DNA of 38,492 nucleotides from a virus. The stretch is taken from the IMG/VR virus record IMGVR_UViG_3300001450_000094, positions 1-38,492 of that record; one strand, given 5' to 3'. The translations under genes were made by a program, and so were the position numbers. Shown one piece after another: positions 1 through 19,332 of the stretch. The notes under the pieces were generated by a model. It worked only from the letters and a program-made list of their open reading frames with translations, was not told where the DNA came from and searched no databases. Positions within the stretch are counted from its first letter, which is position 1. Each line of letters starts with the position of its first letter.

Positions 1-1
1 A

Positions 2-4261: not shown

Positions 4262-4524
4262 TATCTTCTCCCAATAGTTCTAAATCTAACTGCTTGCCAA
4301 TGCCAACGTCTATCAGTCAATGCTTTGCGTACTGCAACAGGTTCTAGATTAAAAGTTAAACAGATGGAAATGAAACTGAATATGTATTTAGATTCTTTTG
4401 AATTGAACCAGTCTTCAGCTTCTTTTTTTATCCTTGGTTCCTTTGAGTACAACTCGTTCATTGCATTTTGCAGTATCACGAACTGTATTTTTTCTGCGAA
4501 GTTCAGGTGAGTCTTGGTCCCCAT
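4261..4524 (-). CDS. Small conserved-looking phage protein overlapping the VRR-NUC gene
   Basis: 87 aa if begun at the ATG at 4524; the same frame is open back to an ATG at 4701. The core, AEDWFNSKESKYIFSFISICLTFNLEPVAVRKAL, resembles a small phage family in which a WF(x)nFSFxxIC segment precedes LxLxPxxVRxxL and which often sits in replication modules; its function is unknown. This is pattern recall, not a database match. It ends exactly where the helicase begins (stop and start share position 4261). The 110 bases at its 5' end lie inside the VRR-NUC frame. No good Shine-Dalgarno precedes 4524, so a frameshift product from VRR-NUC or a start further upstream cannot be excluded. Confidence 0.55.
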   Translation of the reverse strand: MGTKTHLNFAEKIQFVILQNAMNELYSKEPRIKKEAEDWFNSKESKYIFSFISICLTFNLEPVAVRKALTDRRWHWQAVRFRTIGRR

Positions 4525-4954
4525 CTCTTGGCTGTACAAGTACGAGTCCTTCTCTTGGTTCGTTACATCCCAACTTGATTCGTTGAATAATGTCGTTCCA
4601 ATTCCATGGTTTCTCGAAGGTAGTAACTGGAGCGTCAGATCGGAGTCCTTGTTCGGCAACGATGGAGACATCTTTTCCTTCCCAGAGATAGATCGTGTCA
4701 TTTTTTCTAGCCATTATCTTGGCGTTCACGTTGAGTTGTGAGTGCCGAAGTATCCAGAGTACTTGTTCTGGTCTTAGTTTTACTACGTTGCCCCGTATAA
4801 CTTTAAGTTCAATCCATCCCGATGCTCCTTCGTCGCGTAAGCTAGACCAGTACACATCAGGCACGCCCGGACTAGACACGGATTCTACTCTAGTCATTAA
4901 GAACTCTCGCTTAAGGTTTGTCTTAAGTAACCGCCAAAAATCTGATTCAAGCAC
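4415..4954 (-). CDS. VRR-NUC domain nuclease
   Basis: 179 aa, GTG start at 4954. Residues about 24-60 carry the VRR-NUC/PD-(D/E)XK-like pattern: SSPGVPDVYW, then GWIELKV, then KLRPEQVLWI, where the Asp of GVPD, the E-x-K of IELKV and the Gln of EQ are the expected active-site positions. Phage VRR-NUC proteins are stand-alone endonucleases linked to recombination or Holliday-junction processing. After about residue 130 (NWNDIIQRIKLG) the sequence becomes basic and unstructured, and this tail overlaps the next small gene in another frame, so the functional enzyme may end earlier in evolution or be joined by frameshift. It lies upstream of the SNF2 helicase, a frequent partnership in phage replication modules. 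Confidence 0.85.
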   Translation of the reverse strand: MLESDFWRLLKTNLKREFLMTRVESVSSPGVPDVYWSSLRDEGASGWIELKVIRGNVVKLRPEQVLWILRHSQLNVNAKIMARKNDTIYLWEGKDVSIVAEQGLRSDAPVTTFEKPWNWNDIIQRIKLGCNEPREGLVLVQPRDGDQDSPELRRKNTVRDTAKCNERVVLKGTKDKKRS

Positions 4955-4986
4955 AGCTTACTTGTACCCTAAAAAGTTCTTATTAT

Positions 4987-5508
4987 CTAATGGGTTAGCT
5001 CGTCTCGCAGGGTAGCGTAGCTTAAGGTGTGCCTGTCTTCTAAGAAGTCCATGCTAAATAAATAGCGTGGCTCTTTAAAGTTATAGACCGAGTGCGCAGT
5101 CTGTGTGTTAAATAGGTAGTAGGTGTGGGAAGCGTACTCTAGTTCAACAAAGTTGTTGGTTCCGCTACCATGAGCAATGCAACTGTCTCGCTTCAGTGTT
5201 CTAGTAAACAGGCAGTGACTACTACCTTCTGCGTTAAGCAGCATGTTTACCCCCACCCCTCGGTCAGTGTCTATGTGCCAGTCGTAAAACACGTAAGGAT
5301 CTAGACGTATGATGCCAGCTTGGAAAGGGTGTCGGGCAAGTAGATCTTTTGCCCACGAATCTAACGCCCAGTCTTCGTGGAGGGGCAGGGCTTTAAAGTG
5401 ATAGTAATCTACCCATTCTTTTTCGGATGCTTCCTTGGCCCTGTCATACAACCTTGCTGCTACAGGGGACACTACTTCGGTGTTGTAGTAAAGGTCACTC
5501 GTTTCCAT
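4987..5508 (-). CDS. 2-oxoglutarate/Fe(II)-dependent oxygenase-like protein
   Basis: 173 aa. The motif YDWHIDTDR gives an H-x-D pair (His78, Asp80). Further on, TAHSVYNFKEPRYLFSMDF supplies the distal His (139) and an Arg (148) about nine residues later. Together these make the facial Fe(II) triad and the 2-oxoglutarate-binding Arg of the double-stranded beta-helix oxygenases, in a version close to Asp/Asn hydroxylase-like phage proteins. The substrate is unknown: a protein side chain, a nucleotide or a DNA base are all possible. Its 5' end overlaps the 3' end of the DUF3310 gene by 14 bases, so it is in the replication operon. The call rests on motif spacing; fold prediction would be decisive. 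Confidence 0.65.
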   Translation of the reverse strand: METSDLYYNTEVVSPVAARLYDRAKEASEKEWVDYYHFKALPLHEDWALDSWAKDLLARHPFQAGIIRLDPYVFYDWHIDTDRGVGVNMLLNAEGSSHCLFTRTLKRDSCIAHGSGTNNFVELEYASHTYYLFNTQTAHSVYNFKEPRYLFSMDFLEDRHTLSYATLRDELTH

Positions 5509-5764
5509 GAGGCTTACGCGGGTCGCTACCTAATAGGGTGCTTAAATAGAACTGGGCTTTTTGTAGATCCTCAATGTAGTTAGCTTTGTGCTTGGCGCGT
5601 AGTACATACTTTAACACCTGTCCTGTGCAGTAAGCTTGGAAGCCAGACGTACCTAAGCAATCTTTGATAACGTCTATTACTTCAGTGTTACCTACTGTGT
5701 AGTGGGACGGGCTTACTACGTTCTTGTTTAACCTATCTAGGATAGGACCAGTGGTGCCTCTCAT
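5495..5764 (-). CDS. DUF3310 family protein
   Basis: 89 aa. It has the family pattern: an N-terminal PSHYTxG(N)TEVIDVI segment (about 19-33) followed by GxxxYCxGQVLKYVLRAKxK and a helical EDLQKAQFYLSTLL. The conserved HY and the KY-x-x-RxxxK basic patch are visible. DUF3310 proteins are common in phage replication operons and are sometimes called nucleotide kinase-like because of domain fusions; the biochemical role is not established. The ATG overlaps the polymerase stop as ATGA (5761-5764), which argues for coupled translation directly after DNA polymerase. Confidence 0.85.
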   Translation of the reverse strand: MRGTTGPILDRLNKNVVSPSHYTVGNTEVIDVIKDCLGTSGFQAYCTGQVLKYVLRAKHKANYIEDLQKAQFYLSTLLGSDPRKPHGNE

Positions 5765-6990
5765 TTAGTTTCTCCCCATGTCTTGCCCATTGCTGCGTCT
5801 ACTGGTGTGGGTACGTTTAGTTCTACTGCGTCTTCCATGCACTGCACTAGAGTACGCATAGTAGACTCGTTTCCACTTGCGGTTATCTCGTCGTGGATAC
5901 TTATCTTTACATCCACCCCAGCTTCGCACGCGGATAGCAGCGCCATCTTGTTCTGGTCAGCGGCACTGCCCTGAATTAATCTGTTCAAAGCCTTGTATGT
6001 ATAGGCTCTTCGTATGTTTTGTCGGGGCCACTTCTTTAGAGCTTCGTCGTGCGGTAGTGCTGTTACTCCTCGCACGTTGTAGGGTTCGTACTTCTCAAAC
6101 CTACACCGCCTACCTGACAGGGTGGCTATCACTCCGTGCTTCGAGGCCATCTCTTCGCACATCTTTTTAATCTGTCGCACAAAGGGGAAGGTGTTGTGGT
6201 AGTCGTTAAGCTTAAGCTCTGCTTCGGGAAGAGACAGACCTAGCTGTGCTGCCAGCTTTACTTTGCCCATGCCGTAGGTCATGCCTAAGTTAATTGTCTT
6301 GGCGAGGAACCGGCTGACCCCTAGTTGTTCTGCTACTAGCTGGTGGAAATCGGCACCGGGATCTTGTTGATACGCAGCAACCAAAGGATGCCCTTCGCCA
6401 AGGCCACGCTTGACCACGTAGTGCATGAGAATACGAGACTCTTGTGAGGAATAGTCTGCACCGATCCAACTTTCCCCTGACTCAGGGAGAAACAAGTTAC
6501 GAAGAGGCTTACCAATCTCGGGGTCGCGGGTCGGGATCTGTTGGAGGTTGGGGTGGGAGTATGAAAATCTACCCGAAACTGTACCGTAGTCGTCTGACCT
6601 GAGTTGGTGTATCTGTGCATGTATTCGCCCAGTCTTTTCGTTGTACTTCTCAGCCAACCCTCGAACAAACTGCAGTCCTTTGTCCAGCTTGCGAGCACGC
6701 TTAATAATTTTAAAAAATTTTACGTCAGTGTTCTCAAAGAACTGTGTTGTAAAGCTAGGTTCTCCGGTAGGCGTGCGATCAAAATCTCCCAGCCCTTTTT
6801 TAATTGCAGCAATTTCTATGCTCCTGCCTGACCAGATGTCTACACCTTCCAAGTCTTCTGACAAGGTGTCGATCTCTGTTGACCACAGTTCCTTAAGGGC
6901 TACCGCTCCTTCCATATCAAAGCGTACTCCACGCTTACGCATACGGTAGAGGTGCGGCTGAAGCTTGGACTCCAACTCAAACACTTTCAT
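5761..6990 (-). CDS. polA: Family A DNA polymerase, polymerase domain only (split polA)
   Basis: 409 aa, containing only the palm-fingers-thumb part of a Pol I-type enzyme. Motif A is DYSSQESRI (catalytic Asp179). Motif B is R227-xxx-K231-xx-N-L235-G-xxx-YG. A conserved NRLIQGSAAD (336-345) follows, and motif C is SIHDE (Asp367, Glu368). The residue equivalent to E. coli Phe762 is Leu235; in surveys of phage Pol A, Leu there is associated with temperate or slow-growing phages. No exonuclease domain is fused: the proofreading domain is the separate upstream gene, whose stop overlaps this ATG as ATGA. The enzyme presumably replicates the phage genome as a two-subunit polymerase. All catalytic residues are present. 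Confidence 0.95.
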   Translation of the reverse strand: MKVFELESKLQPHLYRMRKRGVRFDMEGAVALKELWSTEIDTLSEDLEGVDIWSGRSIEIAAIKKGLGDFDRTPTGEPSFTTQFFENTDVKFFKIIKRARKLDKGLQFVRGLAEKYNEKTGRIHAQIHQLRSDDYGTVSGRFSYSHPNLQQIPTRDPEIGKPLRNLFLPESGESWIGADYSSQESRILMHYVVKRGLGEGHPLVAAYQQDPGADFHQLVAEQLGVSRFLAKTINLGMTYGMGKVKLAAQLGLSLPEAELKLNDYHNTFPFVRQIKKMCEEMASKHGVIATLSGRRCRFEKYEPYNVRGVTALPHDEALKKWPRQNIRRAYTYKALNRLIQGSAADQNKMALLSACEAGVDVKISIHDEITASGNESTMRTLVQCMEDAVELNVPTPVDAAMGKTWGETK

Positions 6991-7625
6991 AGCAGGTTGT
7001 CCTTAATAAGCAGGGGCTTTAGTACGTGCCACAATCTACGTGTAAGATCTGCGTCTTGCTCTGCGTAGATACCTACCATGTGTGGAGGGTACACATGGAT
7101 CTTACCCTTGGCTTCTCGGGTGGAGAACCCAAACATAGCTGCGGCTTCGTACAGCAATGTCTCGCTCTTCTTCTCTCCAAGATAGCGTTCGCCTAAAGCA
7201 TTAAGAGAGTATGTCTTTGCTGATTCGTCCAGAAGAGGGGCGGCTATCTGTATGTCTACCCACTCCCCGGCTACGGATACTCCCTCGTTTTCTAACCAGC
7301 CTACGTCATAGGATGCGTTAGCAAATATCTTGGGTTGCTCTGGTCTAGCGAACTCGACCCGGCACCACTCAAGTACTTGGTCCCTGTCCATGTTCATGCC
7401 TGTCTCGTGGGCTATGGGGAAGTAGCCCTTCCAGTCCTCAACGGACACAGCTATACCTACAGTGTGTCCGTGGCCCGTGGCCCAGCCGGGGCCGTTGTCT
7501 TTCAGACCGGGGTCACATGTCTCCAAGTCAATCGCAATCTCTTCCGCACCTGAGAGGTCAGGCAACTCCGTTGGGAGTTGCCATTCCTCTTCAGTCGCAG
7601 CATCAAACCAAAGCCTGTACTGCAT
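6987..7625 (-). CDS. 3'-5' exonuclease (proofreading half of split DNA polymerase I)
   Basis: 212 aa, matching the DEDDy exonuclease domain of Pol A. Exo I is AIDLET (Asp33, Glu35), Exo II is FANASYDVGWL (Asp107), and Exo III is YAEQDADLTRRL (Tyr187, Asp191). A SLNALGERYLG segment before Exo III is also typical. It removes mismatched 3' ends, probably in complex with the polymerase encoded directly downstream. The two genes overlap by four bases, and together (about 620 aa) they equal the size of an intact phage Pol A, so a gene split is more likely than an independent nuclease. Confidence 0.92.
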   Translation of the reverse strand: MQYRLWFDAATEEEWQLPTELPDLSGAEEIAIDLETCDPGLKDNGPGWATGHGHTVGIAVSVEDWKGYFPIAHETGMNMDRDQVLEWCRVEFARPEQPKIFANASYDVGWLENEGVSVAGEWVDIQIAAPLLDESAKTYSLNALGERYLGEKKSETLLYEAAAMFGFSTREAKGKIHVYPPHMVGIYAEQDADLTRRLWHVLKPLLIKDNLL

Positions 7626-7634
7626 AGGAACACC

Positions 7635-8420
7635 CTACATCTGGAAGTCCTCAGTCGAGGACTCCACTTCAACTACGGGAGCATCTACTGCTTTGGCAAA
7701 CTTCACATCGTTTACCTGTTTGGCCAGTGCGATACATCCTTGCAGCATGTCTTGATCAGTAAGCAGGGTGCCTTCGCCGAACTTAAACGAGTGCCAGCTT
7801 TGTGTCATGCCATTCTTCTGGGTGCTCTCTTGGATAGTAGACAGAGTGTAGGAATGAGAGAACAAGGGCGCACGAATTACTCGGCCAGAAGACAGAGTAA
7901 TCTTCTTGCTCTGCAACTGTACGTTCCATCGACGCGCATACTTAAGCTGACTCTTAGAGCAAGACACGATAGACATACCAAGATCCTCCCCGTCTGGAGC
8001 AAACACTTGGCAGATATACTGCAGCGTGTCTTCAATGACAGACGTAGGGTCGTCGGTTACTACGTTCTGGTTCTCTACCTTGTGCGTAGCAGGTAGCTCT
8101 GGGTCACTAGGAGTAAAGACATTGATCAATCCTCCTCCGCTCTCACGCATACGCCACTGAATCTTAAGGTGCTCAAAGCGCAGCGGAATAATAGTAAGGG
8201 TGTCGTAAGCTTTGGCGTTGACAGTATGTACAAGCTGCCCAGCCTTGCTGCTTTCAATGTAGTTGCCGTCTCCTTCTACCAAGTACGGCGACATCTTCTG
8301 TACCATGCGAATGAAAGGTAGGGTTACTTCGTCGCTAGTAAAGTCCGCGCCGTAACCTTCCAGTCCATCGAACAGTTCTTCGGGGAGAGTTTCTTCTTTC
8401 TTCTCAATAGCTTTGCTCAT
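7635..8420 (-). CDS. Conserved replication-module protein, possible ssDNA-binding protein
   Basis: 261 aa from the ATG at 8420, chosen because AAGGTAAGG lies 9-16 bases upstream and the codon follows the stop of the upstream gene (8431). An in-frame ATG at 8462 has no clear ribosome site and would overlap that gene. Features: an acidic N-terminus (FDGLEGYGADF), then LPFIRMVQKMSPYLVEGDGNYIESSKAGQLVHTV, a pattern I associate with a phage family found beside DNA polymerases and often suspected to bind ssDNA, and an acidic C-terminus ending DFQM. No catalytic motif is visible. It lies just upstream of the exonuclease and polymerase genes. Function is inferred only from position. Confidence 0.75.
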   Translation of the reverse strand: MSKAIEKKEETLPEELFDGLEGYGADFTSDEVTLPFIRMVQKMSPYLVEGDGNYIESSKAGQLVHTVNAKAYDTLTIIPLRFEHLKIQWRMRESGGGLINVFTPSDPELPATHKVENQNVVTDDPTSVIEDTLQYICQVFAPDGEDLGMSIVSCSKSQLKYARRWNVQLQSKKITLSSGRVIRAPLFSHSYTLSTIQESTQKNGMTQSWHSFKFGEGTLLTDQDMLQGCIALAKQVNDVKFAKAVDAPVVEVESSTEDFQM

Positions 8421-8430
8421 TTGAATTACC

Positions 8431-8985
8431 TTACCTTTTAATGGTTGCTTTTTGTCCGACATAAACGTTGAACTCTTTGGGCAGTTCTCTGCCTGCTTCT
8501 ATCTCTTCTCTTACAAATGCTTTTAATGTCATTGGTGCAATTTTAATCTCATCCTTGGGTACCAAACCAAGCTCGCCTAACTTCTCGCAGGCTCGTCGGG
8601 CATCCTCTCCTTCTCCCTTCTTGAAGTCAACCGATACATTATGTTTGATGATGTCGCCGTTGCCTGTGTCGTGCAGCCAGTTGAACGCAGCTTCACGATC
8701 CTCTACTTTAACGCTGGCTTGGTAGTAGTTAGAAACTGTGAGCTTCTCACCGGACTCAAGCTTAAGCTGCGACAAGCCCATAGCTGTCATAGCCTGCGGA
8801 AGGAGTTCTTCTTGGATAGAGCGTAGCTCTTCCTTTGCCTTCTTCAGGTCTTGCTCTGCTTGATCTACTGCCCTCAAGTGAGCGACCATGTTGTTGGCTA
8901 GTCTGCCAACGTCACCAAGGCTGACCTCTTGGTGTTGCTCAAGCTCTGCAACTGCGCCTTCAATCTCATCAAAGATATCACTCAT
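8431..8985 (-). CDS. Conserved replication-module protein with N-terminal coiled coil
   Basis: 184 aa, family recognised only as a recurrent neighbour of phage replication genes. Residues about 35-65 (HLRAVDQAEQDLKKAKEELRSIQEELLPQAM) form a strong heptad coiled coil; the rest is alpha/beta with a KLESGEKLTVSNYYQASVKVEDREAAFNWLHDTG segment. No enzyme motif or Cys cluster is seen. The ATG at 8985 overlaps the stop of the upstream gene (8982) as ATGA, and the next gene starts 10 bases after this stop, so it is firmly within the operon. A nucleic-acid-binding or recombination accessory role is plausible but unproved. Confidence 0.75.
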   Translation of the reverse strand: MSDIFDEIEGAVAELEQHQEVSLGDVGRLANNMVAHLRAVDQAEQDLKKAKEELRSIQEELLPQAMTAMGLSQLKLESGEKLTVSNYYQASVKVEDREAAFNWLHDTGNGDIIKHNVSVDFKKGEGEDARRACEKLGELGLVPKDEIKIAPMTLKAFVREEIEAGRELPKEFNVYVGQKATIKR

Positions 8986-9290
8986 TGTTCTTCTCCTTCT
9001 GTTTCCATCGACTGCAATACTAAGCGTTGTGTCTCGTAGTTATTTAATAACATCAGTGCCGCCAAGCGACTGAGAATAAAAGCTGTACCTTTATGCGCTG
9101 CCTCAATCAAGAGCTTACCCTCTTCGGTGTCAGAATATTTTTCAAAAATTTTCTCTAACTCAGGCATAGCATCAAGAAAGTCTTCCCAAATAACTTCAGT
9201 CTGCTCTTCGATAAGAGAGTTAAGGTACTCACTTCGTTCCTCCAGATATGTATCCAAGGGGCTGAGTGTAAAAGATTTTGCCTTTTTCAA
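8982..9290 (-). CDS. Hypothetical acidic helical protein
   Basis: 102 aa, very acidic at the C-terminus (METEGEEQ) and largely helical; no family recognised. No ATG occurs in frame before residue 41, so translation probably begins at the TTG at 9290, giving a basic start (KKAKSF). That start overlaps the integrase 3' end by 62 bases, and the stop overlaps the next gene by ATGA. The two overlaps and the lack of a strong ribosome site imply that it depends on translation of the integrase. The start is uncertain. Confidence 0.6.
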   Translation of the reverse strand: MKKAKSFTLSPLDTYLEERSEYLNSLIEEQTEVIWEDFLDAMPELEKIFEKYSDTEEGKLLIEAAHKGTAFILSRLAALMLLNNYETQRLVLQSMETEGEEQ

Positions 9291-10173
9291 TTGTCTCTAC
9301 CATTTCCTGTATGACTTGCTGCTTAACTGTGTCGGGACGGTGATCGTATATGGCTGTGGTTTCAGGCTTGGAGTGGCCCAAGATACTACTCAACACGTAT
9401 GGATCAACGCCAGCTTCCAGCAGTGTAGTAGCTACTGTCCTGCGTAGATCGTGCGGCGTAAACGATTCGATACCAACACGATCAGCCAACAACTTCAACT
9501 CACGATTGAAGTTGTTGCGTAGTATCTGCCTGCCTCGGGGCCACTGCACTAGGTGCTTGCGATTGGGTACATCTACCCAGTGCAAGCGTAGCACTTGAAC
9601 TACAGGCTTGGTTATCCATACAACATGAGCGCGGGAACCTTTCTGCACTAGCTCTATGCGCCCGCTCTTGTCCATGCAGTCGCGGGGTAGTGACAACAGT
9701 TCCGACACGCGCATGCCTGTAGTAACAAGCACAAAGAAAGCGGCCCGCATGAACCTGTCTTTGGGAAGCTGACCCACATCAGACAGGACCAAGGCTATCT
9801 CTTCACTCGACAACCTCCGACCAGCGTGGCCCGTGGCCTGTTGTGGTGGACACGGAACACGGCGCACGTTGGACAGACTGACAGCATCGAACGCACCAGC
9901 CTCTACCATGCGAGACAGGAAGGCACGTAGTGTCTGCAACTGAAAGCGCACAGTGCGTGGCTTCAAGTCCATCGACTCGAATGACTCACGCAACACGGAC
10001 ACCTGCTCAGGTGTGACGCTCGACCAAGGGTAGGTCCATGCGTCGTGGTCCGTGGATAGCATGGCGGCTACCCTGTTAAGCACGGCAAGTCTTTGCCTGC
10101 CCAAAGATGCAGTCGCCTGTGTCGCTAGAAAATTCTGCAAAATTTTAGAAGAGGGTATCGAGTCCCTGTTCAC
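9229..10173 (-). CDS. int: Tyrosine recombinase (phage integrase)
   Basis: 314 aa from a GTG at 10173, which has GGAG seven bases upstream; a TTG at 10197 in the same frame has no ribosome site. The N-terminal half is a SAM-like core-binding domain (about 10-95). The catalytic domain has TTGMRVSELLSLP (Arg155), beta-hairpin Lys178 in VQKGSRAHVVW, HDLRRTVAT (His241, Arg244), LGH (His267) and nucleophile Tyr276 in AIYDH. All active-site residues are present, so it should be active in strand exchange: prophage integration/excision or resolution of genome multimers. It is embedded in the replication operon, overlapping genes on both sides. No attP-like tRNA fragment was found beside it. Confidence 0.93.
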   Translation of the reverse strand: MNRDSIPSSKILQNFLATQATASLGRQRLAVLNRVAAMLSTDHDAWTYPWSSVTPEQVSVLRESFESMDLKPRTVRFQLQTLRAFLSRMVEAGAFDAVSLSNVRRVPCPPQQATGHAGRRLSSEEIALVLSDVGQLPKDRFMRAAFFVLVTTGMRVSELLSLPRDCMDKSGRIELVQKGSRAHVVWITKPVVQVLRLHWVDVPNRKHLVQWPRGRQILRNNFNRELKLLADRVGIESFTPHDLRRTVATTLLEAGVDPYVLSSILGHSKPETTAIYDHRPDTVKQQVIQEMVETIEKGKIFYTQPLGYISGGTK

Positions 10174-10429
10174 CTTGTATCTCCTGCAATTCTTCAAGTA
10201 ATTTAATAAGAGAATTTAAATCTTGGTTATAAATACGAACGTCTATACCCTTTGATCCGACTACATCTTTCAGGAGGAAGAAGGGTTGGCCCGTGATCCA
10301 TTGAGCAGCGAAGTTCCCTTTACTTATCTTGTTCAATATCTGTTTCGTTCTAATCAATTCGTCATTCATTTGTCGGGCAGCCTTGCAGTTGGCCGTATGA
10401 AATGCAAGAAGAACCGTTTCCGCACACAT
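10145..10429 (-). CDS. Hypothetical small helical protein upstream of integrase
   Basis: 94 aa from the ATG at 10429; a second in-frame ATG at 10369 would give 74 aa, and neither has a clear ribosome site. The N-terminal helix (AETVLLAFHTANCKAARQMNDELIRTKQILNKI) and the rest (GNFAAQWITGQPFFLLKDVVGSKGIDVRIYNQDL) show no enzyme motif. I do not recognise the family. It ends inside the integrase frame (29-base overlap with the GTG start), consistent with coupled translation. It is the first gene of the - strand replication operon, and only 16 bases separate it from the divergent primase gene. Confidence 0.6.
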   Translation of the reverse strand: MCAETVLLAFHTANCKAARQMNDELIRTKQILNKISKGNFAAQWITGQPFFLLKDVVGSKGIDVRIYNQDLNSLIKLLEELQEIQGEQGLDTLF

Positions 10430-10445
10430 GCGAGTGAGGTGATAG

Positions 10446-12695
10446 ATGAAAGATGATAGAGATAAAGAAGTATACCTGCCAACAAAACGAGTACTTGTTT
10501 ACGCTATGGGAATGGTGGACGGCGTAGCTAAATGCGCCTGCCCTGATGGGTGTGACAGTCCCGGCAAACACCCTATCAACGGGCCATCATCTTCCAAGCC
10601 ACGTAGCCAATGGTCAGCACACTTAACTAATGGGGGTGGAGTGGGCATGGCCCTTAACTCCACCTTTATTTGTATTGACATCGACCCCCGCAACGGGGGC
10701 CGTGAATCGTTTACCAAGTTGGAAGAAGAACTCGGCCCGCTACCACAGACCGGACCCTTTGAACTGACGGGTACTGATAATGAGGACAGGCGGGGTGCCC
10801 ACATATACTTCCGCAATCCCGGTGGCATAGACAGCAACATCAACAACCTCGCCCCCGGTGTCGAAGTAAAAGTAAATGGCTACGTAGTATGTGCCCCCTC
10901 GCCCCATGCCTGCGGTACTCCTTATGCGTGGGGCAAGGGCAACGGACCCGACAAGCAACTTCCCGATCTTCCCGAAGCGTGGGTGCGTGTAATCTACGGC
11001 CACCAAAAGGCCACGCCCCAAACCCCAGTGTCTATAGACCTGACGCCCGCTGACTTGGACTCCGCTATTGAGCAAGCTCGTGTATCTGTACGCCAACTGG
11101 AGCCTAGTGTAGCGGGGGAGAACGGACACGGAGCAGCGTGGCTAGCTGCAGTAACCGTGGTCCGTGGCTACTGCCTGCCTGAACCCGATGCCTTTACTGT
11201 ATTCAACGAGGAGTTCAACAACAGGTGCGAGCCTGCTTGGAGTCAGCGTGAGATACTGCACAAGTTAAAGCAAGCGGCCACCAGATCCAACAAGGAGTGG
11301 GGCTATGCTTTTACACAAAGGGTCGAGGAGCCTGTCGCTTACGCCGACGAAAACATCTCGGCCCTGCTCGAAGGCAAAGAGGTTGAGGCTATCCATACTG
11401 CAGCAGTCACGCCTCGTGCTACGGGTACCGTGGCCCGTGGCCGCAAGCAGTCTGGGCAAGCGGACCCTCGGATTGCTTATGATTCAAAGGGCGGGCTAGT
11501 CAAACACGTAGAAAATTTGCGAGTAATTTTTGAGACTGACCCCAACCTCCAAGGCCGCTTCGCTTACAACACACGCAGTGAAACCTACCTGTTCAAACCC
11601 TTTGCCGAGAGTCAGCCCCGCCCCTTCTTGGACACTGACATAGTAGGGGTTCGTACCTACCTTGTCCGTGAGTGGGGTGTGCAGTTCAGCAAGGACGACA
11701 CGCGAGACATGATGGAGCAGGCATCCAGACTCAAGGAGTTCGACCCGGTGGTGGATGAGATCCGTAGCTACCAGTGGGATGGAGTCGAGCGCCTTGGCTC
11801 GTGGCTCGTGGACTATTGCAACGCCAAGGATACTCCACTCAACAGGGAGATAGGTAAGGTCTGGCTCAAGGGTGCAGTCGCTCGGGCCTTGGACCCCGGC
11901 TGTCAGTTCGACTACTGCATGGTACTCGAAGGTAAGCAGGGCGTGGGTAAGACCACAACCCTACGCATACTCGGGGGCAAACACTACATCGACTCGCAGT
12001 TGGAGCTAGGTGGTAGCCAGAAGCACAGCGATGTGACTCGCGAACTCTATCTTAGTGGTGCGTGGATCGTGGAACTCGGTGAGTTGGACGCATTGAAGGG
12101 GCAGTTCAAGAGGGACAGTGCCATCAAGCAGTTCATTACTCAGAGTAAAGATGCGATACGTATGATGTATGCTCGTTATCAGATTATCAAACCCAGATCG
12201 TTCGTCATGGCTGGTACTACCAACAGCCACACATATCTTACGGATACTCAGAACCGTAGGTGGTTGCCTGTCCGGGTAGGCCAACTGGATAGGGAGGCGT
12301 TGGAGCGGGACAGGGACCAGCTAATGGCGGAGGCTGTGGCTGCGTGGGAGGTAGACCCCAACCTGTTTGTGGCTAGCAAGTTCGCCATGGAATTGTCGGA
12401 CATGCAGGACTCACGGCGTGAGGTGAGGCCGGATGAGGAGGCAGTGATCGCGTTCCTTGGGGCGAGGTCCGTGGTCCAGATGAAGGATGTCTACGATGTC
12501 ACGGGTACGAAGTGGGACAGGCGGGGCGGCAGGTTCGGGATGTTGTTGGAGCAACAGGGGTGGGTCAGGGTCCGTGGTAGGGAAGGTAGGTACTGGGTTG
12601 ACCCGGCAGTGGCGGGCATGGGACCGGCCATGCTGGATGAGATGTACAACAAGGAGCAGGAGAAGTTCATGTCCCCTCGTGTCACACCTGCGTAG
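10446..12695 (+). CDS. Bifunctional primase/polymerase-VirE-like primase-helicase
   Basis: 749 aa. The N-terminal PrimPol (AEP) domain has the catalytic ICIDIDPRNGG (Asp78, Asp80), GAHIYF (His119) and the VEVKVNGYVVCAPSPHACGTPYAW block (139-162) typical of phage and plasmid PrimPols. A helical linker follows (about 215-280). The C-terminal VirE/DUF5906-type SF3-like ATPase has WDGVERL, Walker A EGKQGVGKT (495-503), Walker B-like IVELGELD and an NRRWLPVRV arginine segment. It should prime and unwind DNA for replication. GAGGTG about six bases before the ATG is a good ribosome site. The gene is clearly GC-richer than the block to its right and is immediately followed by the GTGACAC repeat cluster, which supports an initiator-origin pair. 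Confidence 0.93.
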   Translation: MKDDRDKEVYLPTKRVLVYAMGMVDGVAKCACPDGCDSPGKHPINGPSSSKPRSQWSAHLTNGGGVGMALNSTFICIDIDPRNGGRESFTKLEEELGPLPQTGPFELTGTDNEDRRGAHIYFRNPGGIDSNINNLAPGVEVKVNGYVVCAPSPHACGTPYAWGKGNGPDKQLPDLPEAWVRVIYGHQKATPQTPVSIDLTPADLDSAIEQARVSVRQLEPSVAGENGHGAAWLAAVTVVRGYCLPEPDAFTVFNEEFNNRCEPAWSQREILHKLKQAATRSNKEWGYAFTQRVEEPVAYADENISALLEGKEVEAIHTAAVTPRATGTVARGRKQSGQADPRIAYDSKGGLVKHVENLRVIFETDPNLQGRFAYNTRSETYLFKPFAESQPRPFLDTDIVGVRTYLVREWGVQFSKDDTRDMMEQASRLKEFDPVVDEIRSYQWDGVERLGSWLVDYCNAKDTPLNREIGKVWLKGAVARALDPGCQFDYCMVLEGKQGVGKTTTLRILGGKHYIDSQLELGGSQKHSDVTRELYLSGAWIVELGELDALKGQFKRDSAIKQFITQSKDAIRMMYARYQIIKPRSFVMAGTTNSHTYLTDTQNRRWLPVRVGQLDREALERDRDQLMAEAVAAWEVDPNLFVASKFAMELSDMQDSRREVRPDEEAVIAFLGARSVVQMKDVYDVTGTKWDRRGGRFGMLLEQQGWVRVRGREGRYWVDPAVAGMGPAMLDEMYNKEQEKFMSPRVTPA

Positions 12696-12998
12696 TTATA
12701 TTGTAGTGGCCTGACTATATGAATCCGTGACACATCGTGACAGTCTGTGACACATATGTGTCACAGGAATAAGCCAATAGATACAAGGGTTTCATGTGGC
12801 TCGTGACACTGTGACACTTAATACTATAATAAAGTAGAAGGGGGGTAGAAGAGAGAGAGCGCCGAAACTTCCGGGGATCTTGTGTAGTTTTGCTCCAACT
12901 CCAAAGTATGTGTCACGGTGTCACGGTGTCACAAATCTGGGGCAAGTTACTAATAACACTAGGGAAAATGGTGTGACACATAGACCTTGGCGTGACAC
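12679..12998. other. Putative replication origin: iteron-like GTGACAC cluster
   Basis: Eleven exact copies of GTGACAC or its complement lie in 320 bases. Forward copies start at 12727, 12747, 12803, 12811, 12973 and 12992; reverse copies start at 12679, 12758, 12910, 12918 and 12926; one degenerate copy is at 12737. Pairs and a triplet are spaced by exactly 8 bases. An AT-rich stretch (12817-12836) and a purine tract (12833-12859) lie in the middle, as in iteron origins with an unwinding element. The site directly follows the primase-helicase gene, and its left edge reaches into the last codons of that gene. The remaining bases to 13061 carry no convincing gene. Alternatively it is a repressor operator array. 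Confidence 0.65.
12745..12766. repeat. Perfect 22-bp palindrome inside the putative origin
   Basis: Two GTGACAC units face each other as CTGTGACACAT and its exact complement with no spacer, giving a perfect 11+11 palindrome. It is the only head-to-head pair in the cluster and could bind a dimeric initiator or repressor, or extrude as a cruciform. Confidence 0.8.
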
Positions 12999-13061
12999 AT
13001 GCAGCGTAAGTATCTAATAAACCTAAAGAATCTGGGCCAGCGGCGTTCAACTCTATTAGAT

Positions 13062-13097
13062 AAAAAGAAATGCGGGTTACCCGTGGGCAACCCGCAT
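13062..13097 (-). terminator. Rho-independent terminator, - strand
   Basis: A 9-bp perfect stem (13070-13078 with 13089-13097, ATGCGGGTT/AACCCGCAT) encloses a 10-base loop. Reading on the - strand it is followed by TTTCTTTTTA (13062-13070). It lies about 20 bases past the stop of the 92-aa gene at 13118 and would stop leftward transcription before the putative origin. Confidence 0.85.
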
Positions 13098-13117
13098 ATC
13101 TTATTACCACCCAAGCA

Positions 13118-13396
13118 TTAGTTATTGTGCTGATACGGTGGCGTATTGTTTTCGATTCCGCCTGTTACATAGTTGCTGTTTAGTTTTAATTTTCCCAAAA
13201 TTTTTTGAGCATAACTTTCGCTTACGTTGTCTACGATAAGGGTCTTGTTAAACGGTTTAGCGTTGGATGTTCCGCCCTTGTGTTCAGGATAACTAATTCC
13301 GTAAACACGATAGGTTCCTTCGTGCTCGAAGTTTGATCGTCGCGTGCCCTCGATAACCCGAGCAGTTCTTTCTTCTGTAGTTTCTGATGTGCTCAT
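13118..13396 (-). CDS. Hypothetical protein
   Basis: 92 aa, not recognised. It is hydrophilic, with an N-terminus rich in Ser, Thr and Glu, a central YRVYGISYPEH segment and an Asn-rich tail. AGGA sits seven bases before the ATG. It is flanked by rho-independent terminators on both sides (13417-13461 upstream, 13062-13097 downstream), so it must either have its own promoter in the short upstream gap or be read by leakage through the first terminator. No Cys, membrane or DNA-binding motif is evident. Confidence 0.65.
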   Translation of the reverse strand: MSTSETTEERTARVIEGTRRSNFEHEGTYRVYGISYPEHKGGTSNAKPFNKTLIVDNVSESYAQKILGKLKLNSNYVTGGIENNTPPYQHNN

Positions 13397-13416
13397 GACG
13401 TTCCTAATATCCCTAA

Positions 13417-13461
13417 GAAAAAAACAGCCCGGTACCCCCAGAGATTAGAGGGGTACCGGGC
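13417..13461 (-). terminator. Strong rho-independent terminator, - strand
   Basis: A 12-bp perfect GC-rich stem (13427-13438 with 13450-13461, GCCCGGTACCCC and its complement) has an 11-base loop. On the - strand it is followed by TGTTTTTTTTC (eight consecutive T at 13417-13424). It should end transcription of the accessory block (18.3-13.5 kb) before the 92-aa gene. The 78 bases from 13462 to 13539 hold no evident gene. Confidence 0.9.
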
Positions 13462-13539
13462 CGCAGCCTAGCCTTGTATGTGAAAGAGGATTAACGCATA
13501 CCTAGCTAGACATATCTTTGGGTTGAGGTACCCAAAGAA

Positions 13540-14052
13540 TTAGTGTGTTGTTTCATTGTCGTTGTTGCTGTGCAAACCCACAAGATCTTTAAGGCTTTCT
13601 TTCATAACCTTCTCTTCCATCTTGGAAGCCATTTCCAATTGAGCATCCTCCATGAAAATCTCAAAACGTTCGGCCCAAGTATCCATGTCTTTGTCAGGAG
13701 AAATCAAAGCTTCAATGTACTGTCGAAAGCTGTAAGAAAATTTCTCAAGAAACTTTTCGCTACCAAAAAACTGAGCGCCCTGTTGAGTAAGCCTACGCAT
13801 GTAACCCTGCATAGATCCGGGTCGGAACGAAGGATGAAACTCTATCAGTTCGCCATGATCCGTAGTCGAACCCAGATCTCGTGCAACTTCGTTGGGAACT
13901 ACCATAGAATGAGAGGTATAATCCCCATCCGTTTTTCTACCGTCCCTTCCTACCTGCACATGCAATACCCAGTAGTTGCTTTTGGTAGGCAACGGCATCA
14001 GTTTGTACTGAACAATCTTTAGTTTCTTTGCTTCACTATTCAATGTGATCAT
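13540..14052 (-). CDS. Hypothetical protein in the phosphatase/kinase-like block
   Basis: 170 aa, family not recognised. The N-terminal half looks like a beta-rich domain (KLKIVQYKLMPLPTKSNYWVLHVQVGRDGRK); the C-terminal half is helical and acidic (DTWAERFEIFMEDAQLEMASKMEEKVMKESL). No catalytic or metal-binding pattern is seen. The ATG overlaps the stop of the phosphatase gene (14049-14052, ATGA) and AAAGG lies about ten bases upstream, so it is translated with the phosphatase. A strong terminator follows 78 bases downstream. It may be a partner of the phosphatase; that is inferred from linkage only. Confidence 0.75.
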   Translation of the reverse strand: MITLNSEAKKLKIVQYKLMPLPTKSNYWVLHVQVGRDGRKTDGDYTSHSMVVPNEVARDLGSTTDHGELIEFHPSFRPGSMQGYMRRLTQQGAQFFGSEKFLEKFSYSFRQYIEALISPDKDMDTWAERFEIFMEDAQLEMASKMEEKVMKESLKDLVGLHSNNDNETTH

Positions 14053-15107
14053 TTGTCTTTACCTTTCAATGCAAGCAAGTGTTCATCTCTTTGCTTGGCT
14101 ATAAGTTCTAGATATTTTTCTTGTGTTTGTGATTCAATTGCTTTGCTACAATGCTTAGCTCTAACTAATTCGATAGCACTCTTAGCTGATATTTTTTTCC
14201 TACTACCTACCAAGATTAAAGCAGCGATTGCCGTTCCTGTTCTGCCATGCCCTCCAACACAACAGCATACAGTCCTGCCTTGAGGTAAAAGATTCCATAG
14301 CTCTAACCAAAAATCAAAACCCACAGGTGGTATACCCATGTCAGGGTTCTTGATTCGCAACACATGTGGAACATCTACTTTCTCACACAGTTGCGTCATT
14401 TGTTTTTGCCAATGGAAATCATTTAATGCCTGAGGAAGTACGTCTCTTATCCTCATGTCACGAGAACCTGCTTTAAAGTTGATTGCTTCATTAGGATCAG
14501 TAGCCTTGAACAAGCCTGCTAGATCCACAACTAATTCAAGTTCCCTATCTACTGCAACGTGATCTCCTTGTGCTCCAGCTAACTCTATTACTTTTCCTTC
14601 ATTGTTTTCTCCTTGCCATACTATAGTTTTACCATTGTGTGTCGGACAAATCTTAGCGTTGCCAGTATAAAATCCAGCACTACTTTGAAACGCTGATTGT
14701 CCCCAACTATTTTTATGTTTATTTTTACTCATTGGTTCTTCCTTAATTACCTCTCCTGAATCTTCGGCATAATCAAAAGCCCCATTCACAAAAGCTTTAG
14801 TGTAAATATACCGTTCATTCTCTGAGTTTTCGGAGGTACCCAGTCCAACTTGGTGGTTACCTTCTCCCAATTCAATGTCCCATACGTCCTGTTGAGCTAT
14901 GACGTATACCCACTGACAATTAGAACAAACAATAATAGGTTGTTTGCCATCAAGCGTTTCCTCAATTGGATGCGGACTAAACCAAGAACCTTCCACCCGT
15001 ATTTCCACGGGCAATTGAGACATGTCGTAACAAGTTTTATCTGGCTCCGATTCATATCCCGCAACACAATGGTGACACACCCATTCATCTAACTCGCTAT
15101 ACGACAT
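14049..15107 (-). CDS. CX5R-type cysteine phosphatase (PTP/dual-specificity-like) with N-terminal zinc-finger-like region
   Basis: 352 aa. The signature CVGGHGRTG gives the P-loop C283-x5-R289 followed by Thr, as in tyrosine/dual-specificity phosphatases; a hydrophobic strand (GRTVCCC) precedes it and a helix (TAIAALILV) follows. An upstream ELVVDLAGL strand fits the DSP fold; the general-acid Asp cannot be assigned with confidence. The first 70 residues have two CxxC pairs (Cys11/14, Cys61/64) that could bind zinc. An internal ATG (codon 126, at 14732) has AAGGA nine bases upstream, so a 227-aa phosphatase-only product is possible. It overlaps the 991-aa gene by 11 bases and the next gene by 4. 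Substrate unknown; see the kinase-like neighbour. Confidence 0.8.
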   Translation of the reverse strand: MSYSELDEWVCHHCVAGYESEPDKTCYDMSQLPVEIRVEGSWFSPHPIEETLDGKQPIIVCSNCQWVYVIAQQDVWDIELGEGNHQVGLGTSENSENERYIYTKAFVNGAFDYAEDSGEVIKEEPMSKNKHKNSWGQSAFQSSAGFYTGNAKICPTHNGKTIVWQGENNEGKVIELAGAQGDHVAVDRELELVVDLAGLFKATDPNEAINFKAGSRDMRIRDVLPQALNDFHWQKQMTQLCEKVDVPHVLRIKNPDMGIPPVGFDFWLELWNLLPQGRTVCCCVGGHGRTGTAIAALILVGSRKKISAKSAIELVRAKHCSKAIESQTQEKYLELIAKQRDEHLLALKGKDK

Positions 15108-18072
15108 CGGGAACAGTTCCTTTAACCTTATCGAAATCAGCAGGATCAGCAGCTATACCCTTGGCTAAGAAACTACCAAAGTAAAAATTCTTAAGACTCA
15201 TGGAAGGTTGCGTATCTTTCACTTGGTTAAAATGATTGTACAACGGCATAAATGCAGGGCTATTGACATCCATCCTGCCTAGATATTTAGTACCATTGGC
15301 GGTCACTTTAGGTTGTGGGCAATTAAAAATACCGGGTAAATCTTTACGATAAACACTAAAGCTACCATGAATATTACTAACCATAGGTGCCGGGTGCGTA
15401 AACTCTCCGATAGTTCTAAACCCAAGAGGATAGAAAGTTACACGGCCAACATCATCTCCCGGCTTAGTTGTATTTACAGGTACCATCATGAGATATGGAG
15501 TAGTAGAACCCGCCATACTATTGACTACATACCCAGCAGGAAACAAGCACTGTAAAGCATCGTGCTTGGGTGCATGAAGCAAACCAATGTTGGCACCAAG
15601 AGCGGGAACAACGTGGTAAGGAGTAGTTACATTGGAAGAATCCTGCCAGTAATTCAACAAGGACTGCACATCCATATTATTTGCAAAACCTGTTTCAAGT
15701 AGTGAAGGTTTGTGGTTACCCCTGTTGTCCTTTTGATTGGACCACATCAAGTTACCATGCTGAAGGTCCCAAGTACTGTAGCTACTATCTTTAAACTGAG
15801 AGGGTCCACTGTGGTACTGCATGTGGATAAGATTTCCTCCCTCTCTTAGACAAACCAGAACAGGAGAGAAGTTCATTGGCTCACCAATATCAGAGCCGAA
15901 CCATTTAATATTTTTTAAAGCATTGCCTGCTTGATGATGAGAACTAATAACATAATCAGGGTTGTGTAAGTTAAGATACTTAAAGGGAGTATTCTTAACA
16001 GTACCAACACTAACTACTTTCTCTTCAGCAAGAGATTCAACAGCGGTGTCAAGCTGTGCCGTATAAAGATAGTTTGTATGAATAGCTTGGCCATCATCAG
16101 AAGCTACCTTAAATGCCCACTCCTTATCCTTAGAAGCAAGAGCTTCCATGCTTATTGTGTGCCCTTCGGAAACCTCAACATCAACAGCAGCACCATGCCC
16201 TGTAACTTTAGTTTTTAATACACCAAAGTTATCTGTTTGGATAAGGCATGGGTCGTCGTCATTGCTAATACAATAAGGAACCATGGACTTCTTATTAATA
16301 CGAGAATTCCCTATGGATGTATAAGATTGCATACCAGTTAGAGATGAAGCAGTAGGCACACAAAGACCTGTGCCGTCGCCTTCCCAGCCATGCTTTAAAA
16401 ACTCCCGATGTTTTTCTACAGCGGAACCAGACATCAAAGCAAAATCAATAGACAAATTGGCAGCGTGATCAAACATGTTAGTGGTAACAAATTTATTAAA
16501 CACCCACCCACAGTTGTGTCCGATATTAATAACTTCATTAAACATATCAAGAAGTCGTTGCTTTATTCGATTACGACTACCCAAAGTATTATAAGCTACT
16601 TCTAGGTTGGAAGTTGAAGACCAATCTTGGTTATAGGATTTACGAATAAGGTGCTGGGCCATCTCATCCATAAGAATTTGATAGCGTGCAATGCGTGCCC
16701 ACTTATCCCCGCCATAAGAACCAGACCAATGGCCATTCTTAAAAGAAAGATAAGAACGACGAACCCTACCCTGTGCAAGAGGACCCCATCCAGACCACCA
16801 CCTATCCCAGATAACATTCCTAGCAATCACTTCTCCATTAGCTTGCTTCGGATGTTTAGATCCATACCTAGCCTCACCAATTGAAAGCAAGCCAAGTAAC
16901 CGAACAGCATAGCCAATGCCCAAGCCAAGCAAGCGCGACCCTACAGTTGGCTCTTGAAACTGATGAGTATGAAAAGCCAAAAGCATAATGCTCATAGCTT
17001 CTCGATAACTAACAGAGTCTTCATGCAAAGAAGAACCTTTGTGCTTGCGATGGTGTATGCCCTCACTAAAAACAGGATAGTCAAAGGCACGTAAAGCATG
17101 AGCATAACCGTTGTTAAAAGGATGAGTCTCGAAAGTAAACTTAGCCTTGGGGTAATCAACAGGATGAATACTATTGCCAGACTCTAACTCAATATCGTCT
17201 GCCCACCGAGTAATGTAAGTAACTCCAGCTTCTTTGGTATTCACACCCCAATGGGAATGTAACCCCCCACCTGCGTGGTAAACTACATCTACTTTTGGGT
17301 CCAAAGAATAGACAAGCTTGCGCCACTCAACAAAAGTTTCCTTACCCGTTGGGATAACAACATTTTGAATGTGCTCTATATAATGAGGTACAAAATTAGA
17401 AGAAACTCCCTCAACTTTTTCACCAGCACGACACTGAACTAAAAAACTTTTAGCTATGGACGATGGCTTTACATATCCACTGGAGTTGCCCTTCCTATAT
17501 TGAACAACTTCTAAGTACGGATCGTGAGACTCAAGAACAATAGAAGAATCTTCTGGCAAATTATGCCAGCTATCTTTTGAACTGGGATAGCCAAGCATAA
17601 TAGAATCCTTACCCTCAGTAGCACCATCATTATCAGGACCAACACTGAAAGCATTGGGAGTAATAATCATACTCGAAGTCGATCGGTTCAAATGATCCAT
17701 GAGAATAAGCTCACCTTCAGGATCTGCTTGGAGTACCTGAAGATAAAGCTCAGCAATTTCTCTAGTGCTAGTAACTCTAACGCTATCAAGAAAACCATGA
17801 GCAGGTAAGAGAGGAGCAGGCCGTGCAAACAAACCTGTCTTTAGGTATTTACCCCACGCCACAGGAATAGAAACATTAGGTCCCTCACTTTGATCAGTAC
17901 CTTGAGTCAAATCTGACCAGTTGCTTTTGTTAATAACAAAGAATGTAGGTACTTCTATCTTATGATCCGTAAGATACTTGTCTTTAAGTCGTGCTTTATT
18001 AATTAATTTCCAGCTTGAAAGCGCATCCAAACCGTTGGCTTTCTGTGTCTGATACAACTTATGTTCACTCAT
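15097..18072 (-). CDS. Large protein with ATP-grasp-like and phosphohistidine (PEP-utilising) swivel-like N-terminus; unknown C-terminal two thirds
   Basis: 991 aa. I read the first 300 residues as dikinase-like. VPTFFVI (41-47) resembles the VPxGFxI lid start of ATP-grasp dikinases. LFARPAPLLPAHGFLDS (81-97) resembles their (V)RSS...GxFxS phosphate-binding segment. ELILMDHL (121-128) and FLVQCR (210-215) resemble the VQxMV strand and the terminal LQxRP strand. GGGLHSHWGVNTKEAGV (268-284) matches the GGxxSHxAIxARExGIP swivel motif with His274 as candidate phosphohistidine. Residues 310-991 match nothing I know. Known relatives (PPDK, PEP synthase, rifampin phosphotransferase) transfer phosphate from ATP through His to a substrate. 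AAGGA precedes the ATG. Base composition is distinctly AT-rich. The downstream phosphatase overlaps by 11 bases. Confidence 0.55.
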   Translation of the reverse strand: MSEHKLYQTQKANGLDALSSWKLINKARLKDKYLTDHKIEVPTFFVINKSNWSDLTQGTDQSEGPNVSIPVAWGKYLKTGLFARPAPLLPAHGFLDSVRVTSTREIAELYLQVLQADPEGELILMDHLNRSTSSMIITPNAFSVGPDNDGATEGKDSIMLGYPSSKDSWHNLPEDSSIVLESHDPYLEVVQYRKGNSSGYVKPSSIAKSFLVQCRAGEKVEGVSSNFVPHYIEHIQNVVIPTGKETFVEWRKLVYSLDPKVDVVYHAGGGLHSHWGVNTKEAGVTYITRWADDIELESGNSIHPVDYPKAKFTFETHPFNNGYAHALRAFDYPVFSEGIHHRKHKGSSLHEDSVSYREAMSIMLLAFHTHQFQEPTVGSRLLGLGIGYAVRLLGLLSIGEARYGSKHPKQANGEVIARNVIWDRWWSGWGPLAQGRVRRSYLSFKNGHWSGSYGGDKWARIARYQILMDEMAQHLIRKSYNQDWSSTSNLEVAYNTLGSRNRIKQRLLDMFNEVINIGHNCGWVFNKFVTTNMFDHAANLSIDFALMSGSAVEKHREFLKHGWEGDGTGLCVPTASSLTGMQSYTSIGNSRINKKSMVPYCISNDDDPCLIQTDNFGVLKTKVTGHGAAVDVEVSEGHTISMEALASKDKEWAFKVASDDGQAIHTNYLYTAQLDTAVESLAEEKVVSVGTVKNTPFKYLNLHNPDYVISSHHQAGNALKNIKWFGSDIGEPMNFSPVLVCLREGGNLIHMQYHSGPSQFKDSSYSTWDLQHGNLMWSNQKDNRGNHKPSLLETGFANNMDVQSLLNYWQDSSNVTTPYHVVPALGANIGLLHAPKHDALQCLFPAGYVVNSMAGSTTPYLMMVPVNTTKPGDDVGRVTFYPLGFRTIGEFTHPAPMVSNIHGSFSVYRKDLPGIFNCPQPKVTANGTKYLGRMDVNSPAFMPLYNHFNQVKDTQPSMSLKNFYFGSFLAKGIAADPADFDKVKGTVPDVV

Positions 18073-18444: not shown

Positions 18445-19272
18445 TTAGAAGGGTAGCTGTTCGCTCACTTCAGGTGTGGATTTCGCTTTGGGTTTTGCTT
18501 TCGCTGCACCCTCCCCGAACTCGCCTTTGAAGCTGTTGATTGCATGCACTAAAGATACTGCACCGTGCGCCTGACCATCGAACTTCACAAGATTTGTAGT
18601 ACCATCGAGTGCAGTTGCAAGGTGAACGTCAGGTATCGTAGCTACGAACTTGAAGTTGAATCCGCTCTGAGTATCAAGGCCGAGCGTCTGATTCAGTTCG
18701 TGCCAGTGCTGCCCCATAAGCGAGGCGGTGAGTTGCTCGTCGCTATGTTGGCAGCAGTTACGATACCAAGCATCGCCGACCGCAGTATTCGTATCGGTCA
18801 GCGCTACCTCGCTTTCGTTGAGCGTGGCAATAAGTTCGTTGCAAAGCTCAATGTGTGTATCGCTACGCTTGTGCTTGCCCTTCGTATCAAGGCGCAGCTT
18901 GTCGTAGTCAAGAGGAGTAAGAGCAGATGGAGTACCGCCCTTCATTGTCGCTGCTTTAGTCATGTACTGCGAGCGCTGCAGCAATGGAGTATCTCCGAAG
19001 TGAAGATGAAACATCCAAGGTCCCTCGCGCCGAACGCTCAGCAGGTACTTGGCTGTAGCGATCTGCTCGGGAGTACCCTCGGTAAGCTGGCGGTCCTCGG
19101 CAAGGAAATGATTATACTCCGTGTCCTCGTCGTAGTAATACGGAGCGTCACCACCATCAGCGCAATCGCGGGCACGAGTAAAATCTCCGTATCCTGCGAA
19201 AGCATTGTCGAAAGCGCCACGCCTAACGCTAGTGCTAGCGGTCGATTGCTTCTTAATAAATTCAAATGCCAT
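18445..19272 (-). CDS. Hypothetical early protein with a -LPF C-terminal tip (possible ssDNA-binding protein)
   Basis: 275 aa from the ATG at 19272, which has GAGGA eight bases upstream; an ATG at 19287 overlaps that ribosome site and is unlikely. Family not recognised. The body (FKFVATIPDVHLATALDGTTNLVKFDGQAHGAVSLVHAINSFKGEFGEG) is followed by a flexible Ala/Lys/Pro linker and the last residues SEQLPF. A linker plus terminal PF recalls the SSB tip that recruits partner proteins, but the tip is not strongly acidic and no OB-fold signature can be shown by eye. A structured element lies in its leader at 19330-19380, within a 117-base gap to the previous gene. Confidence 0.7.
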   Translation of the reverse strand: MAFEFIKKQSTASTSVRRGAFDNAFAGYGDFTRARDCADGGDAPYYYDEDTEYNHFLAEDRQLTEGTPEQIATAKYLLSVRREGPWMFHLHFGDTPLLQRSQYMTKAATMKGGTPSALTPLDYDKLRLDTKGKHKRSDTHIELCNELIATLNESEVALTDTNTAVGDAWYRNCCQHSDEQLTASLMGQHWHELNQTLGLDTQSGFNFKFVATIPDVHLATALDGTTNLVKFDGQAHGAVSLVHAINSFKGEFGEGAAKAKPKAKSTPEVSEQLPF

Positions 19273-19332
19273 GATTAAATTCCTCATTCAGATATCAATA
19301 CTAGATGCCGTCTAGCGCGGTAATAAATCAAA

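Follow-up and report, generated by a model that had tools for sequence, protein, structure and literature searches.

Pyruvate phosphate dikinase (PPDK) and PEP synthase bind their acceptor in a domain that lies beyond the His domain. In plants, a glucan water dikinase and a phosphoglucan phosphatase (SEX4 type, a dual-specificity CX5R enzyme) share one acceptor. In rifampin phosphotransferase (RPH), Lys22, Arg117 and Thr136 hold ATP, His825 carries the phosphate, and the second transfer uses an Arg-Glu pair (PMC4844700). The two-component dikinases, which include HpeHI, CreHI and PpsAB, provide a precedent for acceptors other than PEP (PMC12167813). In phages, a dikinase and, separately, a nearby phosphatase have been reported as auxiliary metabolic genes on the basis of annotation and docking (PMC12038007). 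Here, we describe a phage gene cassette that combines a dikinase-like protein with a CX5R phosphatase. This cassette was unremarked in the open-paper literature searched, an absence that is no proof of novelty.

The window, a stretch of 38,492 nucleotides of viral DNA, is a tailed-phage genome, complete or in large part, and encodes a terminase, portal, major head protein, DNA polymerase, helicase, integrase and Prim-Pol/VapE helicase. On the minus strand, a 991-aa ORF (15097..18072; ATG start), whose product we refer to as the fused protein, is followed by a 352-aa ORF (14049..15107; ATG start) encoding a CX5R phosphatase of the DSP/PTP type. The first-pass annotation had reported an 11-base overlap between the two ORFs, the stretch GGGLHSHWGVNTKEAGV with His274 at residues 268-284 of the larger product, and CVGGHGRTG (C283/R289) in the smaller one; all three are present, the overlap at 15097-15107. 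It had also described the block as AT-rich and as bounded by a regulator and a terminator, claims that hold in part. A terminator-like hairpin on the minus strand (13097-13070; 12 bp stem, T-rich tail, rated strong, identified by consensus match only) does close the transcription unit, although two additional ORFs on the same strand, 13540-14052 and 13118-13396, separate it from the phosphatase gene. The former encodes 170 aa and overlaps the end of the phosphatase gene, and locus L077, the nearest relative, has a homologue of it after the phosphatase gene too. The regulator was not supported, as the 280-aa gene upstream of the cassette (18445-19287) had no match in Pfam or PHROGs. The GC content is 0.40-0.42 over 14001-18000 compared with approximately 0.44-0.56 in the replication block (1-14000), a real difference that the earlier values of 37% and 58%, sampled from two lines, exaggerate.

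Scanned directly against Pfam, PHROGs and NCBIfam, the 991-aa protein gave nothing useful, a PDB sequence search with its family profile gave no matches, and single-sequence scans of IMG/VR with either the window protein or the Manatee protein recovered no relatives. The latter, a 569-aa protein of the Manatee Spring phages, is the one distant phage relative found by tblastn, and the next gene, which overlaps its own, encodes a CX5R phosphatase. Profiles were needed to recover the IMG/VR relatives, and successive rounds gave first two loci, then another three and at last 44, of which five are repeats, with E-values that are relative to the candidates only and contigs that may be fragments or prophages. 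Additionally, bacterial genomes were searched with a DNA pattern derived from the conserved stretch RPCPxxPRHGFVDS, which identified three carriers, two Acidobacteria and one Chloroflexi. In all three the phosphatase gene is next after the gene for the large protein, and phage-type genes lie close by in isolate TAA 166. Only 2 of 299 sampled genomes of the same class carry the cassette, a sparseness that fits a mobile gene. In all, approximately 40 divergent relatives were recovered, from phage contigs unrelated to one another and from three bacterial genomes, and the median pairwise identity within the 41-member family is about 27% (mostly 20-35%). In Acidobacteria loci, a ThiF/E1-like protein, recognized by eye, is encoded downstream of the cassette (L160:16955-17863; related proteins in L162 and L165). 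In a few phages, small proteins bearing a GGRHRS motif are encoded near the cassette (L100:7547-8002; L078:12777-13142); we take these to resemble the RapZ C-terminal domain.

The proposed link between the dikinase-like gene and the phosphatase gene proved to be real. The search for co-occurrence in viral databases that had been suggested with it showed a CX5R phosphatase gene adjacent to the large-protein gene and on the same strand, mostly overlapping or a few bases apart, at 43 of the 44 IMG/VR loci, and the single exception is cut by a contig end. Three near-identical contigs have the phosphatase upstream rather than downstream. When all ORFs of 46 loci were sorted into families, the fused protein occurred at 44, the phosphatase at 43 and the next commonest family at 6, such that no gene besides the pair was widely common to the loci. 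Furthermore, the pairwise distances of the fused protein and the phosphatase co-vary (r 0.50, permutation p 0.0005). Near-universal adjacency, the lack of any other common gene and co-varying distances together indicate that this is a two-gene cassette moving among otherwise unrelated phages, rather than shared synteny. The observation is more than chance: His274 does not vary among 41 divergent homologues, and the phosphatase gene is adjacent in every uncut homologous locus. A conserved gene pair need not, however, consist of enzymes that oppose each other on one molecule.

Residues 1-300 of the fused protein probably contain an ATP-grasp and a phosphohistidine part: an ATP-grasp-like minimal domain at residues 1-220 (17413..18072, minus strand) and a swivel-like phosphohistidine domain at residues 221-300 (17173..17412, minus strand; H274 codon at 17251-17253). 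Among 41 aligned homologues, the invariant residues in this region are Q10, K11, R84, P87, P90, H92, G93, F94, S97, E121, G150, T152, E188, Q213, R215, G217 and H274; MAFFT, run separately on 38 members, puts a single His in the E188 column. K11, R84, S97 and H274 occur in the same order as Lys22, Arg117, Thr136 and His825 of RPH. Likewise, K11, R84, E188, Q213-x-R215 and H274 follow the dikinase residue order, the PPDK counterparts being K22, R92, E323, Q335, R337 and H455, and the spacing from R-x8-G to the following Ser is the same as in the R-x8-G-x2-D-T of PPDK. The GGxxSH motif noted earlier is conserved in part: its His never changes (41/41), whereas the Gly pair and the Ser vary, the latter being replaced by D, N, A, T or C in some members. 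The PEP-utilizers domain (PF00391) matched 3 of the 41 members, all below the cut-off (best E 0.014), and in L107, the member inspected, the match falls on the His motif, placing a catalytic-type His on a PEP-utilizers-type loop. At this motif hhalign gave 32.4, compared with 12.5-17.2 for reversed or unrelated controls; it did not connect PPDK with the ATP-grasp part, and the PPDK_N HMM matched neither the 991-aa protein nor fused family members. Hhalign runs with loosened gap penalties were discarded, since reversed controls scored high too. The AlphaFold model of the fused protein was poor (mean pLDDT 39.8, built with 6 sequences), and a Foldseek search with this low-confidence model was led by ATP-grasp enzymes, including D-Ala-D-Ala ligase, cyanophycin synthetase, carbamoyl-phosphate synthetase and synapsin, none below E 0.001. 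The two segment types originally assigned to residues 1-300 therefore survive on invariance across 41 homologues, a sub-threshold PEP-utilizers match and the Foldseek order from a poor model, and the N-terminal fold is assigned from motifs, a weakly scoring HMM match and a model of low confidence. When long family members were searched for informative extra domains, only one fused homologue (L090:7143-10340) yielded any, a hexapeptide-repeat (left-handed beta-helix) region at residues 110-180 of its N-terminal part.

About 690 residues of the large protein had been thought to match nothing. This holds for residues 551-991 (15100..16422, minus strand), which are poorly conserved in the alignments and have no assignment, but not for residues 355-550 (16423..17010, minus strand), where hhalign of the family profile against the PHROG 20946 family gave a probability of 98.6 and an E-value of 1e-15. 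The region contains GExR (399-402), YGGxxW (453-458) and HNxGxVFNKF (519-528), corresponding to the ExR[HY], GGxxW and HNxG....K motifs of an all-helical PHROG 20946 domain. The model of PHROG 20946 itself is confident (pLDDT 95) and all-helical, and the invariant RExRH, GGxxW and HNxGxxFNK lie close to helix ends in it, as they do in the weak model of the window protein. Because this confident model had no match to the PDB by Foldseek, PHROG 20946 may be a new fold. Against viral models, Foldseek returned with high probability five unnamed proteins, which we take to be members of the same family, and nothing informative.

The identification of the 352-aa protein as a CX5R phosphatase holds, with a C-X5-R-[ST] loop and an upstream acid Asp. 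D256 (14340-14342), C283 (14259-14261) and R289 (14241-14243) are invariant in 8 aligned phage PTPs, and the CX5R motif is present at 41 of 41 loci. The protein matched PF22784 PTP-SAK at 3.6e-5, just under the cut-off, and phrog_17568 at 2.9e-13. The label of the latter, thymidylate synthase, was rejected because its matches here are CX5R phosphatases; such phosphatases carry this name in PHROGs (PHROG 17568) and in several GenBank phage records (L003:7647-8435), likely a misannotation. The N-terminal part of the window phosphatase (14049-15107) possesses two CxxC pairs, CHHC and CSNC, that are absent from some relatives and whose sequence suggests a zinc ribbon.

The composition of the fused protein is explained by a split module of dikinase, PHROG 20946 and CX5R phosphatase. 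Siphophages of 80-100 kb that infect Vibrio, Stenotrophomonas, Rhizobium and Rhodobacter carry PHROG 20946 as a stand-alone gene, and so do 69 IMG/VR loci. At 69 of 74 loci, PHROG 20946 has a dikinase and a CX5R phosphatase as same-strand companions, and the remaining 5, without a dikinase, are cut upstream. The usual order is dikinase, phosphatase, PHROG 20946, phosphatase, with just one phosphatase at a few loci. Among annotated phages, PHROG 20946 occurs in 40 records and the count of the phage-type dikinase is identical by host genus; the dikinase search additionally returned unannotated bacterial-looking contigs and phage G gp139. All 20 split phage dikinases contain PPDK_N and PEP-utilizers domains, and in none of the 20 did Pfam detect a PEP-binding domain (for example L002:1314-3425 and L004:3650-5707, from loci L002-L075). 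Fused and split forms contain corresponding parts: ATP-grasp (ATP-grasp-like in the fused protein), phospho-His, PHROG 20946 and CX5R. In an early record of Vibrio phage 1 (AF465603.4, L125), genes in the neighbourhood of the module, 962-1342 and 1174-1809, are labelled pyruvate decarboxylase and transporter; these labels apparently rest on weak similarity, and similar ones recur in later records.

The order of ATP-grasp-like domain, His domain and putative acceptor domain, with catalytic-type residues in the same succession, likens the fused protein to PPDK and PEP synthase, as does the PPDK_N and PEP-utilizers content of the split version. It differs from them in its constant phosphatase partner, in the apparent replacement of the acceptor domain by PHROG 20946, and in the PEP/pyruvate-binding barrel, for which Pfam gave no match in fused proteins, so that an assignment to EC 2.7.9.1 is not supported. 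Moreover, its ATP-grasp-like part is far shorter, with 190 residues from R84 to H274 versus approximately 360 in the phage PPDK. With RPH, HpeHI, CreHI and PpsAB it shares a probable ATP-grasp, a swivel-like His domain, a putative non-PEP acceptor domain and the existence of both fused and split versions (PMC4844700, PMC12167813). Its acceptor domain is not recognizably related to theirs, the PHROG 20946 model having no fold match in the PDB; its His precedes the acceptor-like domain, unlike the RPH order of ATP-grasp, RIF domain and C-terminal His; and no phosphatase partner was found described in these two papers. The plant glucan system likewise joins a dikinase to a CX5R phosphatase and resembles the cassette in logic alone; a glucan-binding domain was not found here, and the plant genes do not form one cassette. 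The siphophage "PPDK" module (Vibrio SIO-2 group, Delepquintavirus, Rhizobium TM16, RcZahn) has the same three components, with a homologous middle domain and phosphatase, but as separate genes and usually with two phosphatases, rather than a fused protein and one.

From the ORFs, motif invariance, middle-domain homology, linkage, co-variation and a split version built around an undoubted dikinase, we infer that the pair is catalytically active and probably shares an acceptor, which may be a host or a phage molecule: the dikinase would phosphorylate the acceptor while the PHROG 20946 domain binds it, and the phosphatase would strip that phosphate. Residues 1-300 would constitute a minimal PPDK-type engine in which the ATP-grasp-like domain moves the beta-phosphate of ATP to His274, yielding AMP and Pi or PPi. 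The phospho-His domain would then swing to the PHROG 20946-like domain, which is proposed to bind the acceptor in place of the PEP/pyruvate barrel of PPDK because it occupies, in the fusion, the position of the PPDK and PEP synthase acceptor domain. By analogy, its GExR motif is a candidate for a role like that of the Arg-Glu pair of RPH. The neighbouring CX5R enzyme would in turn dephosphorylate the acceptor, creating a reversible switch or a turnover cycle.

Other readings share parts of this evidence. The ATP-grasp ligases that led the Foldseek search with the low-confidence model, and the R2K ATP-grasp ligases found in phages (PMC4431377, PMC7824862), are consistent with an N-terminal part that is a carboxylate-amine ligase (D-Ala-ligase-like or R2K-like) with a structural His274, the pair then being a peptide- or amino-acid-adding enzyme and a phosphatase. 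We regard this as unlikely, given that His274 is invariant (41/41) within a GG..SH-like loop and that the split counterpart is an undoubted PPDK_N and PEP-utilizers protein in 20 of 20 cases. Furthermore, ATP-grasp ligases bear E-x-N where PPDK bears Q-x-R, and the invariant Q213-x-R215 is of the PPDK type. Rather improbable too is a system for RNA or DNA end processing or nucleotide signalling, in which the CX5R enzyme would trim phosphates from ends or defence signals and the dikinase would rebuild or re-mark them. RNA 5'-triphosphatases do belong among CX5R enzymes, in Pfam the phosphatases best match PTP-SAK and Tc-R-P (the latter a DSP family of polymorphic toxins), and the sporadic distribution of the cassette resembles that of conflict genes; however, no nuclease, ligase or defence gene was consistently linked to it at the 46 loci, and PADLOC gave no defence-system matches. 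This reading is a particular form of the favoured one, a shared acceptor, with the acceptor named.

The carbon-metabolism role, in which the dikinase would supply the host with PEP or pyruvate and the phosphatase would be a separate signalling gene, is advanced by the annotation and docking published for Vibrio phage vB_VneS_J26 (PMC12038007), and we consider it very improbable for the cassette. Because a PEP/pyruvate domain is not detectable in the phage "pyruvate phosphate dikinase" (0/20), the published reading of that enzyme, judged from sequence, is probably wrong. The similarity of phage dikinases to apparently bacterial PPDKs ends near residue 500-530 of 685, and the published alignment to PPDK comprises 489/691 positions and spans residues 1-527 (PMC12038007). 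A metabolic role also leaves the fixed linkage to phosphatases and PHROG 20946 unexplained.

The reading that we favour, a dikinase and a phosphatase acting on one acceptor, could be extended, tentatively, to a mobile, phage-borne system of reversible phosphorylation: a histidine-relay dikinase, equipped with a new acceptor domain, would mark some molecule of host or phage, and the phosphatase would erase the mark, perhaps as an infection-control or counter-defence switch used by very diverse phages. The cassette represents a widespread phage gene pair whose strong linkage and clear catalytic residues allow its target to be sought directly. The carbon-metabolism gene described in phages as "pyruvate phosphate dikinase" probably encodes another enzyme, and PHROG 20946, a family without an assigned function, gains a hypothesis for its role.
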